A DNA stretch of 64,000 nucleotides from positions 124,001-188,000 of the forward strand of contig CATLOT010000001.1 of NCBI GenBank assembly GCA_950054155.1, in the 5' to 3' direction. The translations under genes were made by a program, and so were the position numbers. Within the stretch, counting starts at the first letter, position 1. Each line of letters opens with the position of its first letter. Origin of the DNA: an uncultured Bacteriovoracaceae bacterium. Lineage in GTDB: Bacteria; Bdellovibrionota; Bacteriovoracia; Bacteriovoracales; Bacteriovoracaceae. Shown here in pieces: positions 11,092 through 26,787 of the stretch. Under the pieces are notes generated by a model that saw only the letters and a program-made list of their open reading frames with translations, did no database searches and had not been told where the DNA came from.

Positions 11092-11691
11092 ATGTCTGAT
11101 ATACTAGGTAGAGAGAAGTTGTTGAAACTTGGAGGTAGCGTGGACCAAAGTGGAAAGAATAATAAGTCCTTTACTCTAGAATCATCATTGCAGTCCTATT
11201 TCTATACTCAACTGCAGGAAATCAATGAAAAGTCTCAGGAGCCTCTACCGAATGAGACAATCTATTATTCAAGTCTTGTTATGGATTCTTTTGGCGATGC
11301 TGAAAAGTATTTTGAAAAGGAAGAGGGAAAAGTCAGGGATAAGATTCTTGGCATCAAGTTATTAAAAACATCTCACATGACAAAAGAAGAGAGAAAGAGA
11401 AGTCTCAAAGATATCGGGGACACAGCCCTTCTCATTTGTGGTTTCTTTTCAGACTCTCTTAATAAGAAAATTCTTGATACTAAATACTACCAAGAGCTGG
11501 GGCAGACTGCCTATCGCCGCCTTAATAGTGAAGTGCCACAAGCTTACGATATACCATCATTCTTTGATCTTATTTCAATGCGTTTTGATCAATTGACGAC
11601 GGTGATGAATTTGGTATCGGCCCAAACATTGGGCCGAGATGATTTATTAGATAGCGCTTATCTTATAACGAATAAGAAGCTTGCTGTTTAA
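11092..11691 (+). CDS. Hypothetical protein, alpha-helical
   Basis: I do not recognise this family. The protein of about 199 residues appears soluble and mostly helical, with no signal peptide, membrane segment or cysteine cluster. It contains FTLESSLQSYFYTQLQEIN near the start and a TSHMTKEERKRSLKDIGDTALL stretch in the middle. The ATG at 11092 is preferred over a TTG four codons earlier; both ribosome-binding sites are weak. It is divergent from the methylmalonyl-CoA mutase gene and converges with the M16 peptidase gene, overlapping its end by four bases. Confidence 0.7.
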   Translation: MSDILGREKLLKLGGSVDQSGKNNKSFTLESSLQSYFYTQLQEINEKSQEPLPNETIYYSSLVMDSFGDAEKYFEKEEGKVRDKILGIKLLKTSHMTKEERKRSLKDIGDTALLICGFFSDSLNKKILDTKYYQELGQTAYRRLNSEVPQAYDIPSFFDLISMRFDQLTTVMNLVSAQTLGRDDLLDSAYLITNKKLAV

Positions 11692-14264
11692 GATTCAAAG
11701 GGATTTTCTCTTCCCACAATAATCGTGGCCCATTTCTGAGAAAGGATTCTTTTGAGTCCTTTTAAAAACGCTTGATATTCTAATTTTTCAACGGCTTGGT
11801 TTGTCGTGTGGTAATAATCTAGCTTCTTTCCCTGCAACGTTGTAACACTATAGATATTCGCGTAATCATCATTCGTTTGAATGTTGAGTAAACTCTGTCC
11901 AGCAATCATTCTTTTAATTCTTTCAAACTCTTCTTGGGAAAGACCATTTTCTTTTATGTTGTTGAGAATCTTTCTTAAGGCCTCAATCGCCGCAGGGACT
12001 TTATCGTGTCCACTTGCCATATAGATGCCCCAGTAGCCAGCCTCAAGTGCCGTGAAGTGAATGGGCTGAGCTGTATAGCAAAGGCCTTGCCTATCTCTTA
12101 CCTCAACAAAGAGCTCTGAGCTTTGACCAGAGAGGTGGGTTGTAAGCATCTTTAGAATGAGATTATCTTTGTGCCCGAGAGGTTTTGAAGGAATACCTGT
12201 GAAGATTTGTGTTTGTTCTCTATCAAAGTAAAGAAACTTCTCCTCTCCAATCTTTGGTTTTGCAAGACCTGCTTTAGGGGCTTTTTCCTTTCTTCCTTTC
12301 AGTTGATCAAAGAGAGGCTCAAGCTTGTGATAAATTTCATCAAGGCTCTTGTCCCCACAATAGGTAATCAAGATTTCATTATTTCTTAGATTCTTTTGGT
12401 GGGTGTCTTTGATTAATTTTCCCGTAATTTTTTTGATGCTATCAAGTGTACCCATGACAGGCATTGCATAGGGATGGCCGTTAAAGAAGGTTTCACTCAC
12501 CATGCTAAAGGTTCTTTTTATGGGATCTTTTTCATAGTTGTGAATAGCTCTCTTGGTCATCTCTTTCTCTTGCTTAATATGCTCTCCCTTAAAAGTTGGA
12601 GTTAGGAGAGAGCCTTCAAAGTGCTGAAGAAGAGGGGTGAGGTGTTCGCTTTGACCATGGAGGGTGATACCATAGGCGTTTTTTCCACTAAAGGCGGAGA
12701 GTGCTGCTGAAAGATTATCAAGTTCCCCTTTTAACTTTTTATAAGGGGTTCTTGCGTAGCCCTTAGTGAGAGTGGCTCCAATAAGTTGGTAGAGTCCATT
12801 CGTATTTTTCTTCTCTTCTGTGATGCCACCTTTTATGTAGGCATGAAGGACAAATGTAGGATTGAGTGGGTTGTGACGATATATAAACTTAATGCCTGGT
12901 TTGATTTGATAAAGCTCAACCTGAGGGTCAAATTTACTCGCCTTCGGTTTCGGTAGATTAGAGCGCCTGCCCTTAAGGGTTGAAATCTTCTTTTCAAGGC
13001 GTTTTTGAAAGGCTTGAAAGTCTTTTTGAATGGCCTGAGTTTTCTTGCCTTCAGGCAGTTGAGTACACAGATGGAGTCCTCTTTTAAACATGCGCTTTAG
13101 GCAGTCATTGACTTCATTTACACTTGTCTTCTTAATTCTTTGGATGAATTCATCTTCACTACCAATATCTCCGGTAGAAGCAAAACTGTGTCCAAGAGAG
13201 AAGGCATAGGACTCTAAAGATTCCATGTCATAAACTTTAGAGGCAATATATTGGTTTTTTATTTTTTGAATTTCTTCGTCTGAAATACCTTCAGAGAGGG
13301 TTTGAATGAGTACATCTTCAAGTTGTTTGAGAAGCTTCTTTGTATTTTCGATGGGAAAGATAAACTTAAGGTAGTGAAGCCCGCCCTTATTCATAAACAT
13401 CGTGCTTGAACCACAGCTTGAAGCGAAACTTGTGTTGGCCACAAGTTCTTGATAGAGGCGACTCGACTCGCCGTGGCCCAAGCAGTTTATAGCGAGGTCC
13501 TCTTGAGGCGCAGAGGGATCCTCAAACTTTGGAGCTTGGAGACAAATACTCATTTGAACAAGGTGAGTATCTTTCTCATGAATATCTGTCGTTGATTCCT
13601 TTTTGAGTTTGAACTCTGGGAATTCAGAACGAGGACCCTCAGGAAGTTGATACGACTCAATGACCTTTATGATTTCTTCTTTATCCTTTAGGTCACCTGC
13701 AATAACAAAGAGGGCGTTACTGAGGTTGTAATAATTCTTACGAAAGGAGACAAGTTGCTCCCTACTAAAATTAAGAATTGTTCCTTCATTTCCTAGAATA
13801 GGGTGAGAGTAACCACCAGTGAAAGCGGAGTTTTGAAGCTTTAAGAAAGAGTATTGATTGGGGTTATCAATTGTTCTTCGATACTCCTCAAAAACAACAC
13901 CCCTCTCAGGGATGAGATCTTCCTCTTTAAACATAGGATTAGAAACCATGTCGAGAAGGATTTCTGTAGTCGTTTTAATCTCGCTATTTGGTGTATTGAT
14001 GTAATAGCAGGTGTAATCAAAGCTCGTGAAAGCGTTTATCTCTCCACCGAAGCTTTCGACTTCATGAGCGACAGCGGCACCTGGCCTTTTTTGTGTTCCT
14101 TTAAAAAACATGTGCTCTAGAAAGTGAGCAATGCCGTGATCTTTCTTTTCTTCAAGAGCAGAGCCTGCGCGAAACCATATCTGGGCAGAGGCAGCTGTGC
14201 TCCCTGGAGAGTGTACAAAAAGAGTTTGAAGGTTGTTTTTAAGAGTTATAAGCTCGTGTTGCAT
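11688..14264 (-). CDS. M16-family zinc metallopeptidase (two M16 domains)
   Basis: This is a pitrilysin/processing-peptidase-type protease in one chain. The inverted zinc motif HFLEH is at about residues 46-50, with the third ligand in the VVFEEYRR helix about 76 residues later. The second half repeats the fold without an HxxEH motif, as in other full-length M16 proteins. The start is taken at MQHELITLKNN, preceded by TAGGATAC. Longer readings to 14318 or 14417 lack a ribosome-binding site and overlap the divergent hemW-like gene. The length of 858 residues fits. No signal peptide is visible with this start, so it may act in the cytoplasm. The substrate is unknown. Confidence 0.9.
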   Translation of the reverse strand: MQHELITLKNNLQTLFVHSPGSTAASAQIWFRAGSALEEKKDHGIAHFLEHMFFKGTQKRPGAAVAHEVESFGGEINAFTSFDYTCYYINTPNSEIKTTTEILLDMVSNPMFKEEDLIPERGVVFEEYRRTIDNPNQYSFLKLQNSAFTGGYSHPILGNEGTILNFSREQLVSFRKNYYNLSNALFVIAGDLKDKEEIIKVIESYQLPEGPRSEFPEFKLKKESTTDIHEKDTHLVQMSICLQAPKFEDPSAPQEDLAINCLGHGESSRLYQELVANTSFASSCGSSTMFMNKGGLHYLKFIFPIENTKKLLKQLEDVLIQTLSEGISDEEIQKIKNQYIASKVYDMESLESYAFSLGHSFASTGDIGSEDEFIQRIKKTSVNEVNDCLKRMFKRGLHLCTQLPEGKKTQAIQKDFQAFQKRLEKKISTLKGRRSNLPKPKASKFDPQVELYQIKPGIKFIYRHNPLNPTFVLHAYIKGGITEEKKNTNGLYQLIGATLTKGYARTPYKKLKGELDNLSAALSAFSGKNAYGITLHGQSEHLTPLLQHFEGSLLTPTFKGEHIKQEKEMTKRAIHNYEKDPIKRTFSMVSETFFNGHPYAMPVMGTLDSIKKITGKLIKDTHQKNLRNNEILITYCGDKSLDEIYHKLEPLFDQLKGRKEKAPKAGLAKPKIGEEKFLYFDREQTQIFTGIPSKPLGHKDNLILKMLTTHLSGQSSELFVEVRDRQGLCYTAQPIHFTALEAGYWGIYMASGHDKVPAAIEALRKILNNIKENGLSQEEFERIKRMIAGQSLLNIQTNDDYANIYSVTTLQGKKLDYYHTTNQAVEKLEYQAFLKGLKRILSQKWATIIVGRENPFES

Positions 14265-14369
14265 ATTGTTGTATCCTAAAATCCTTGAGGGATTACTTGT
14301 CTTGTTATTTCTCTTCATTATAGAAGATTTAACAGTTAAAACCACCTCATTGTTAAAGAAGGAAGCTAA

Positions 14370-15488
14370 ATCCAAAACATAAACTCCCTCTACATTCACT
14401 TTCCCTACTGCCGGCACCTTTGTAATTATTGTGATTTTTATAAAACGATACCAAAGGATGGCTCTTATAGTGACTTTGAGCGGCTTTTCTTAGAAATGAT
14501 GAAAAAGAATCAAGAGCTCTTTGAAAGTCATTCTTTGGAAATGAAAAATCTTGAGACTCTTTATATTGGGGGCGGGACTCCTAGTTTATGGGGAGAGCGG
14601 GGAGCTACATTTCTTAATGAGCGCTTTAAGGATTATGAGATAAGTCTTTCTGCTGAAGGAGAATTTACTTTAGAGGTGAACCCTGGCTCTTGGACGAGAG
14701 AGGGAATAAAAGAGTGGCAAAACTTTGGGATAAACCGTTTTTCTCTAGGAATTCAGTCACTTAGGGGTGACTACTTAAAGCTCTTAGATCGAGTTCATTC
14801 AGTTGAAGATGTTTTTGAAACCCTTGAATACTTTAAAGAAATACAGGCTTCGTTCTCGGTAGACTTCATGCTTGGGCTTCCTTGGAGCCATGAAAAAGAG
14901 AGAAATATTCTTGAGGAGCTTGAGGAGATCTTGGCTTACGGACCAGAGCATCTTTCATTGTACATCCTGACCGCAAAAGGGGGATATCCTCACAAAGAGT
15001 TTCTTCCGGATGAGGAATTTATTGAGAATGAGTATCTTAAGGTGGCGAGGCATCTTAAGGATCAGGGCTATTTGCACTACGAGGTCTCAAATTTTTCGAA
15101 GCCTAATAAAGAGTCTCTTCACAATAAGAGGTATTGGCAAAGTCGTTCTGTAGCTTCATTGGGTCCGAGTGCCGTTGGTTTCTTGGCGACAGAGCAGCTT
15201 CGTTATAAATGGAAAGTCACCAAAGCAGAGTACGAAGAAGAGCTTTTGAGTGAAGAGTCTTTTAAATTAGAAAAGCTTTATATGGGCCTTCGTATTGATG
15301 AAGGGATTTTTATAAAGGATCACTTCTCTCCTCGGGAGGCTGAAAGGCTAGAACCGTTGCTACATAATTGGTGTAAAGAGGGTTTCTCTGTTTTTGACCG
15401 AGATAATGACCACTTGAAATTAACGAGTCATGGTTTTTTAATTCTTGATGGCTTGGTGCAGCAATTGTTCTCCATTCAAAATGCTTAA
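14370..15488 (+). CDS. hemW: HemW-like radical SAM protein, start codon not ATG/GTG/TTG
   Basis: HemW is a radical SAM haem chaperone related to coproporphyrinogen III dehydrogenase HemN. The first in-frame ATG (14496) would give a protein that lacks the iron-sulfur cluster. Reading the same frame upstream recovers SLYIHFPYCRHLCNYCDF, which contains the C-x3-C-x2-C cluster motif (codons at 14409, 14421 and 14430). The frame closes at a TAA at 14367. Only ATC (14370) or ATA (14379) can then serve as a start close to the expected N-terminus. An AAGGA at 14359-14363 is 6 bases before the ATC and 15 before the ATA. From 14370 the product is 372 residues, a normal HemW length. GGGTPS and a C-terminal HemN-like domain follow. 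The CxF after the third cysteine fits HemW better than HemN. Confidence 0.85.
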   Translation: MQNINSLYIHFPYCRHLCNYCDFYKTIPKDGSYSDFERLFLEMMKKNQELFESHSLEMKNLETLYIGGGTPSLWGERGATFLNERFKDYEISLSAEGEFTLEVNPGSWTREGIKEWQNFGINRFSLGIQSLRGDYLKLLDRVHSVEDVFETLEYFKEIQASFSVDFMLGLPWSHEKERNILEELEEILAYGPEHLSLYILTAKGGYPHKEFLPDEEFIENEYLKVARHLKDQGYLHYEVSNFSKPNKESLHNKRYWQSRSVASLGPSAVGFLATEQLRYKWKVTKAEYEEELLSEESFKLEKLYMGLRIDEGIFIKDHFSPREAERLEPLLHNWCKEGFSVFDRDNDHLKLTSHGFLILDGLVQQLFSIQNA

Positions 15489-15618: not shown

Positions 15619-16173
15619 ATGTCTGATCAAGAAAAAATGGAAGAAGTTGTAACAGAACAAGAAGAAACTCAAGCTGAAGGCGAAGTTGAATCTGAAGAAG
15701 GTGTAGAAGCTGCAGGCGAAGAAACTGAAGAGAATTCAGAGGAAGAGGACTTTAAGCAAAAGTTCTATTATCTCGCTGCAGAGATGGACAATATGAAGAA
15801 GAGATTTGATCGCGAGAAAGACAATCTCTTAAAGTTTGGTAATGAAAAGGTTCTTTCTGGTCTTCTTGAGGTCGTCGATAATCTCGATAGAACAGCAGAT
15901 GCGATTTCTTCTGATGAAGATGAAAAAGTAAAAAATATCTTTAATGGAATTGAGATGGTGAGAAAACAATTTCTCGATGTTTTAAAGAATAATGGATTAG
16001 AAAAAGTAGAAGCACTTGGAGAGATTTTTGATCCCAATGTCCACGAAGCTATGGCCCAACAGCCAGCTGAGGGAAAAGAAGATCAAGAGATTATTCAGGT
16101 TTTTCAACATGGATATAAGCTCAACGGAAGACTCCTCAGAGCGGCGAAAGTAGTAATTGCGAATAATAATTAA
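15619..16173 (+). CDS. grpE: Nucleotide exchange factor GrpE
   Basis: GrpE releases ADP from DnaK. The first ~50 residues of this 184-residue protein are strongly acidic and probably disordered. They are followed by the long coiled coil ([22 protein letters not shown]) and the C-terminal beta domain, which ends in [19 protein letters not shown], a typical GrpE signature. The start follows AAAAGGGAATTAAGAACA. It is first in the grpE-dnaK-dnaJ operon, 23 bases before dnaK. Confidence 0.96.
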
Positions 16174-25926: not shown

Positions 25927-26787
25927 ATGACTAAGAAGAAAGCAAATTTTCTCAAATTATCCGTTGAAGAAATGGGAACAAAGCTTTCTGTTTTAGCGAA
26001 GCAAAAAGAAGTGATCAAGGTCTGGGAGAAGGGCGAAGATGCCTTTGTCTATAGAGTCACTGATTATACTGTCATGAAGCTTCCCGATAGCTCGAATTAC
26101 TTTTTAACTCTCTTTAGTGAGGGTAAGGAAAGTGATGATGCTTTAATTGGAAAACGAGTTCTGATTAATTTTAGTATTAAGGACTCCGACTATTTTTCTG
26201 ATGGTGTCGTTGCTGCTGATGATGTTAATAAAACACTTCATATTCAACTTTCAAGAACTTTCTATCGCACAGAGAAGCGGGGCAATGAGCGTCTCCTCAC
26301 TTTTCCTCATCATCAAGTCTATGCTTACTTTAAGGTTTTGACAGAAAAAGAGGAAAGCAATGTCATCGAACTGAAAAGAGATGAAGACCGTAATTACATT
26401 GACTACAAGGTTAAAAAGAAACAAGAGTTAAAAGAGCGTCTTAAGCAAAAGATTAGTGACGTTGAAGACCTCATTGGATTTAGGGCACTTGATATTTCTC
26501 GTTCGGGAATTGCCTTTATTATTAATGAAGATGAATCAAAGTATTTTGCAGAAGATAATAAGTACAGTTTCTATATTCTTTTTGACGGTGACATTTTTGT
26601 CGTGAAAGGCGCAGATCTTGTTTACAAGGTTAATTATGTGGGTGGCCCCCAGGGGACCAAGCGCTTTAAGGTTGGCTTAAATTTTACGCCTGTCGAAAAA
26701 CTGACAAAACACATCACAGATATCCTTAGCAAAGATAATGATAAAGGGACAACAAAAGAAGAATTTGAGGACTTGGTAGAGGAATGA
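25927..26787 (+). CDS. PilZ-type c-di-GMP-binding protein
   Basis: The c-di-GMP contact motifs of PilZ domains are both visible: RxxxR at residues 114-118 (RTEKR) and DxSxxG at residues 189-194 (DISRSG). The gap between them is about 70 residues, longer than usual, and contains a charged helical insert rich in lysine and glutamate. An N-terminal YcgR-like beta domain may cover residues 20-110. There is no membrane segment. The gene lies just after mreB and overlaps the next lipoprotein gene by four bases, so c-di-GMP control of wall growth or surface functions is a plausible but unproven role. Confidence 0.72.
   Translation: MTKKKANFLKLSVEEMGTKLSVLAKQKEVIKVWEKGEDAFVYRVTDYTVMKLPDSSNYFLTLFSEGKESDDALIGKRVLINFSIKDSDYFSDGVVAADDVNKTLHIQLSRTFYRTEKRGNERLLTFPHHQVYAYFKVLTEKEESNVIELKRDEDRNYIDYKVKKKQELKERLKQKISDVEDLIGFRALDISRSGIAFIINEDESKYFAEDNKYSFYILFDGDIFVVKGADLVYKVNYVGGPQGTKRFKVGLNFTPVEKLTKHITDILSKDNDKGTTKEEFEDLVEE

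Follow-up and report, generated by a model that had tools for sequence, protein, structure and literature searches.

A hemW-like gene of the Bacteriovoracaceae is very probably translated from a nonstandard AUH start codon

A hemW-like gene in the 64,000-nucleotide stretch of Bacteriovoracaceae DNA analyzed here (the window) has no standard start codon ahead of its catalytic motif and is very probably translated from a nonstandard AUH codon, most likely the AUC at position 14370. This would be a weak start that is positioned by a Shine-Dalgarno (SD) sequence, sensitive to IF3, and low in output. The sequence features that point to it are the absence of a standard start, the recurrence of that absence in relatives, the SD itself, and a matching start at infC. 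Under this proposal, the ordinary initiator tRNA would read AUC 14370, and the AAGGA SD 6 nt upstream would position the ribosome on it, a strong SD rescuing a weak codon. IF3 would destabilize initiation on the weak AUC; the yield of HemW would then be low and would follow IF3 activity, the same relation that holds for IF3, whose gene infC starts with AUU.

The hemW reading frame

The hemW frame opens right after an in-frame TAA and stays open up to a stop whose last base is 15488. The features considered below, including two neighboring genes used as controls, are as follows (window coordinates).

11688-14264, minus strand: M16 peptidase-like gene (MQHEL...), divergent, control
14359-14363, plus strand: SD AAGGA, 6 nt before ATC; duplex with the anti-SD of -6.2 kcal/mol
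14367-14369, plus strand: TAA, in-frame stop, upstream bound of the hemW frame
14370-14372, plus strand: ATC, proposed hemW start codon, at the codon position of ATA/ATT in genus relatives; SD spacing of 6 nt
14370-15488, plus strand: hemW, radical SAM heme chaperone-like, frame of 372 aa (TIGR00539, PF04055, HNxxYW)
14379-14381, plus strand: ATA, second and less likely candidate start, 15 nt from the SD; sister genomes use the other position
14409-14432, plus strand: CRHLCNYC, [4Fe-4S] cluster motif CxxxCxxC, conserved in the genus
14496-14498, plus strand: ATG, first standard in-frame start; a start here would remove the cluster motif
15619-16173, plus strand: grpE, downstream neighbor, control

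The codons after the TAA read ATC CAA AAC ATA AAC TCC CTC TAC ATT CAC TTT CCC TAC TGC, the last of these being the first Cys codon (14409), and from there the frame continues TGC CGG CAC CTT TGT AAT TAT TGT. From TAA 14367-14369 up to the cluster motif LYIHFPYCRHLCNYCDF, the hemW frame contains neither ATG nor GTG nor TTG; an ATG first appears at 14496, 87 nt beyond the codon of the first Cys. These findings bear out the preliminary description, which had reported a frame opening after a stop, a motif 87 bases upstream of the first ATG, and AAGGA 6 bases before ATC 14370. It had also warned that a gene caller restricted to standard starts would drop the cluster, and this holds, as the first such start lies past the motif.

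A search for a stable 5' leader structure masking the hemW SD found none (fold z of +1.2), and no Rfam element was found. The string CATTATA at 14315-14321 is the reverse complement of TATAATG and lies about 50 nt upstream of the ATG of the M16 gene; it is possibly the -10 box of that divergent gene, and relatives have comparable strings near hemW.

The best NCBIfam model for the window protein was TIGR00539 (HemW), with 184.1 bits, an E value of 4e-54, and a lead of about 29 bits. This score does not reach the curated cut-off of 205.4 bits; most hemW relatives in the host family also fall under it, which suggests that the window protein is HemW-like and part of a divergent HemW-like group. 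The PF04055 radical SAM domain was matched, the CxxxCxxC near the N terminus is LYIHFPYCRHLCNYCDF, and the HNxxYW motif, stated to be conserved in bacterial HemW (PMC10320005), is present as HNKRYW and kept in 7/7 genus members. Compared with HemW as defined by TIGR00539, the protein is alike in CxxxCxxC-x-F and HNxxYW and unlike in its score (184 bits, under the curated 205) and its nonstandard start. Among solved structures, sequence matches were confined to radical SAM enzymes, of the HemN type and others.

Start codons of hemW, its neighbors, and infC

We compared hemW across seven genomes of the genus, the window genome (G000) together with G092, G079, G086, G044, G096, and G068, with codons numbered backward from the Tyr in SLYIH. 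Four of the seven (the window genome, G092, G079, and G086) lack any standard start in the stretch from the preceding stop to the conserved N terminus. The preliminary description had considered an ATG at the same place in relatives, but G092, G079, and G086 carry ATA, ATT, and ATA, respectively, at codon -7, where the window genome has ATC; G068 has an ATG at -8. The four -7 codons sit 5 to 6 nt after an SD, with duplex energies of -3.9 to -6.6 kcal/mol. G044 has ATA at -7 but also TTG at -11. In G096 (L005), codon -7 is GTC, 5 nt after AAGGAG, and the sole standard start is an ATG at -12 whose SD is poor; translation could in fact begin at the GTC, as in Streptomyces sigR. With a possible standard start in each of G068, G096, and G044, the absence of one is not fixed in the genus.

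Outside the genus, a standard hemW start is also missing in G006 (ATT at -6) and G046 (CTG at -8). The G046 gene (L049/L223) is the sole CTG case seen, with the CTG, 5 nt after TAGGA, as its best-placed candidate. Among 110 hemW genes of the family, 79 have ATG, 21 TTG, 3 GTG, and 1 a far-upstream GTG only, leaving 6 with none, versus 0/30 in other families of the phylum. The genus appears as a single clade on the hemW tree, and its end branches are long, at about 0.1 to 0.5 changes per site; this suggests that the nonstandard start is old or recurrent rather than one error. The six nonstandard rows require up to six changes on this tree, and the standard assignments of G044 and G096 are uncertain, so that the hemW tree alone would give no safe count of gains and losses.

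Neighboring genes differ from hemW in this respect. Over a common set of 50 loci, the M16 gene starts with ATG in 47/47 cases and dnaK in 30/30, and grpE has 34 standard starts plus one flagged case with an ATG just inside the alignment; hemW has 26 ATG, 15 TTG, 3 GTG, and 6 with none. The non-ATG excess of hemW over these neighbors gave a Fisher p of about 7e-12, uncorrected for relatedness. We also examined a 374-kb sample of the window genome, comparing about 139 genes that have homologues in the genus. Of these conserved genes, hemW alone truly lacks ATG, GTG, or TTG near the conserved N terminus, and a check of 602 gene instances from all seven members of the genus left the four hemW genes as the sole convincing examples. 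The idea that the window genome employs nonstandard starts throughout was rejected, as about 138 other genes in the sample have standard starts.

The other flags raised by this comparison were dismissed as an antisense-looking shadow ORF, a contig edge, or a normal start just inside the alignment. Three flagged ORFs of G068 were likewise dismissed, their alignments beginning 60 to 200 residues inside the homologue. These ORFs, on G068:C15 (L162-L181) near 26032 (+), 119614 (+), and 277550 (-), are likely interrupted or shortened genes. No special initiator tRNA was detected among the tRNAs found (30 of 32 tRNA loci were scanned), which included three tRNAs with a CAT anticodon and no odd initiator. 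With the pcnB model, the window genome yielded no more than a weak, partial match.

The analogy with infC drawn in the preliminary description proved apt: infC of the window genome has no standard start and carries ATT behind GGAGG. The infC genes L085, L078, L084, L086, and L088 (G000, G096, G068, G044, and G092, respectively) have no ATG, GTG, or TTG before the conserved N terminus and place ATT behind (T)GGAGG, as does L081 of G002. Classical-type self-control by IF3 is therefore probably active in the genus.

Alternative readings of the hemW start

Translation from ATA 14379, which would yield a shorter N terminus (INSLYIH), is unlikely. This codon is also of the AUH type and HemW N termini are short in the family; however, it stands 15 nt from AAGGA, and the SD-spaced codon of relatives that lack a standard start sits three places upstream. 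Where the preliminary description had left ATC 14370 and ATA 14379 side by side, we favor the former, because the codon at its position is ATA, ATT, or ATA in relatives and because its SD lies at a normal distance. What was found for AUC 14370 is a frame with no standard start, an SD within 5 to 9 nt (AAGGA, 6 nt), and recurrence in relatives. A very improbable explanation is that a sequencing or assembly error, either a single-base change or an indel, removed a standard start. The assembly is a draft of 61 contigs, but five other genomes, three of them in the same genus, independently lack a standard start and each has an SD-spaced weak codon, and the defect is absent from the roughly 138 other genes of the window genome.

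We give hardly any weight to a programmed frameshift, in which translation would begin at TTG 14350 in another frame and shift by -1 into the hemW frame before the stop at 14380. That TTG does open a short frame (LLKKEAKSKT*) overlapping the hemW frame, but neither a comparable lead-in frame nor a slippery site is shared by G092, G079, G086, G006, and G046; out-of-frame upstream starts exist, none of them shared among the six genomes. In addition, AAGGA lies downstream of TTG 14350 and so serves the hemW frame rather than this TTG. The view of the preliminary description that the start is nonstandard, barring an error or a frameshift, gains support from the five genomes that resemble the window genome and from the lack of a conserved out-of-frame lead-in. 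It is equally hard to credit a start at ATG 14496, whether it gave a truncated protein devoid of the iron-sulfur cluster or marked a decaying gene, even though this is the first standard start and the one that a standard-start gene caller would choose. The frame is open to its end with HNxxYW kept, and the cluster region is conserved as protein across the genus despite many synonymous changes. The first 37 codons from SLYIH show 67% amino acid identity to genus relatives versus 60% over the remainder, and their codon differences comprise 73 synonymous and 73 nonsynonymous ones. Such constraint indicates translation of the frame ahead of ATG 14496, and a start at that ATG does not explain the gene.

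Start strength and comparison with known nonstandard starts

Beyond the choice of codon, the strength of the hemW start looks tuned across the family. Copies that start with ATG often have little or no SD, and TTG is common, as if weak initiation were favored. SDs are weaker in ATG-started than in nonstandard hemW genes (p of 0.0055), a comparison in which relatives are not independent and in which the nonstandard codon was chosen with SD position in view, biasing those genes toward good SD scores. This relation between SD and start codon is consistent with selection for a set low initiation rate. Tentatively, lineages might arrive at low HemW through different means (an ATG whose SD is poor, a TTG, or an AUH codon backed by a strong SD), the AUH start of the genus being kept by selection and hemW and infC forming a small IF3-controlled set; we regard this broader picture as somewhat less probable than not. 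If it were true, heme handling would be linked to the state of the translation machinery.

To our knowledge, AUH starts are well supported for few bacterial genes apart from infC. Such starts are missed by standard gene callers, and one limited to ATG, GTG, and TTG would, in at least four species, leave HemW stripped of its iron-sulfur cluster. The various weak starts of different lineages offer a natural series for the trade-off between start codon and SD, and the hemW series also bears on whether IF3 controls genes besides its own. A literature search that covered few subscription papers returned no paper tying HemW to a nonstandard start.

Several systems are known to have conserved nonstandard starts. 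In E. coli, infC and pcnB start with AUU (PMC4245954); the infC start is AUA in S. aureus (PMC13009471) and is stated as ATC in Streptomyces (PMC5472188). The AUC proposed here thus lies outside the cited tested examples from E. coli and S. aureus and has its stated counterpart in Streptomyces infC. Like infC, hemW has an AUH codon behind a good SD and no in-frame standard start; unlike IF3, HemW is no initiation factor, so it would be a possible target of IF3 and not an autoregulator by the infC route. Streptomyces sigR, which has an IF3-repressed GTC start (PMC5472188), resembles hemW as a non-IF3 gene with a conserved nonstandard start, one that limits the product in sigR. It encodes a sigma factor and its start was established experimentally, whereas the AUH start of hemW is deduced from sequence comparison. 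The E. coli pcnB gene is likewise a non-IF3 gene with an AUU start, although unrelated to hemW. Further parallels are S. aureus cvfC1 (AUU) and ccpN (AUA), which have strong or extended SDs and in poor medium yield about 10% of what AUG gives (PMC13009471). As in hemW, their AUH starts are conserved among relatives and paired with a strong SD; they are other genes in another phylum, and their starts were shown by ribosome profiling and reporters. Together, these comparisons suggest that hemW uses a known kind of start in a gene and a lineage new for it, and that this recurs in other genera.
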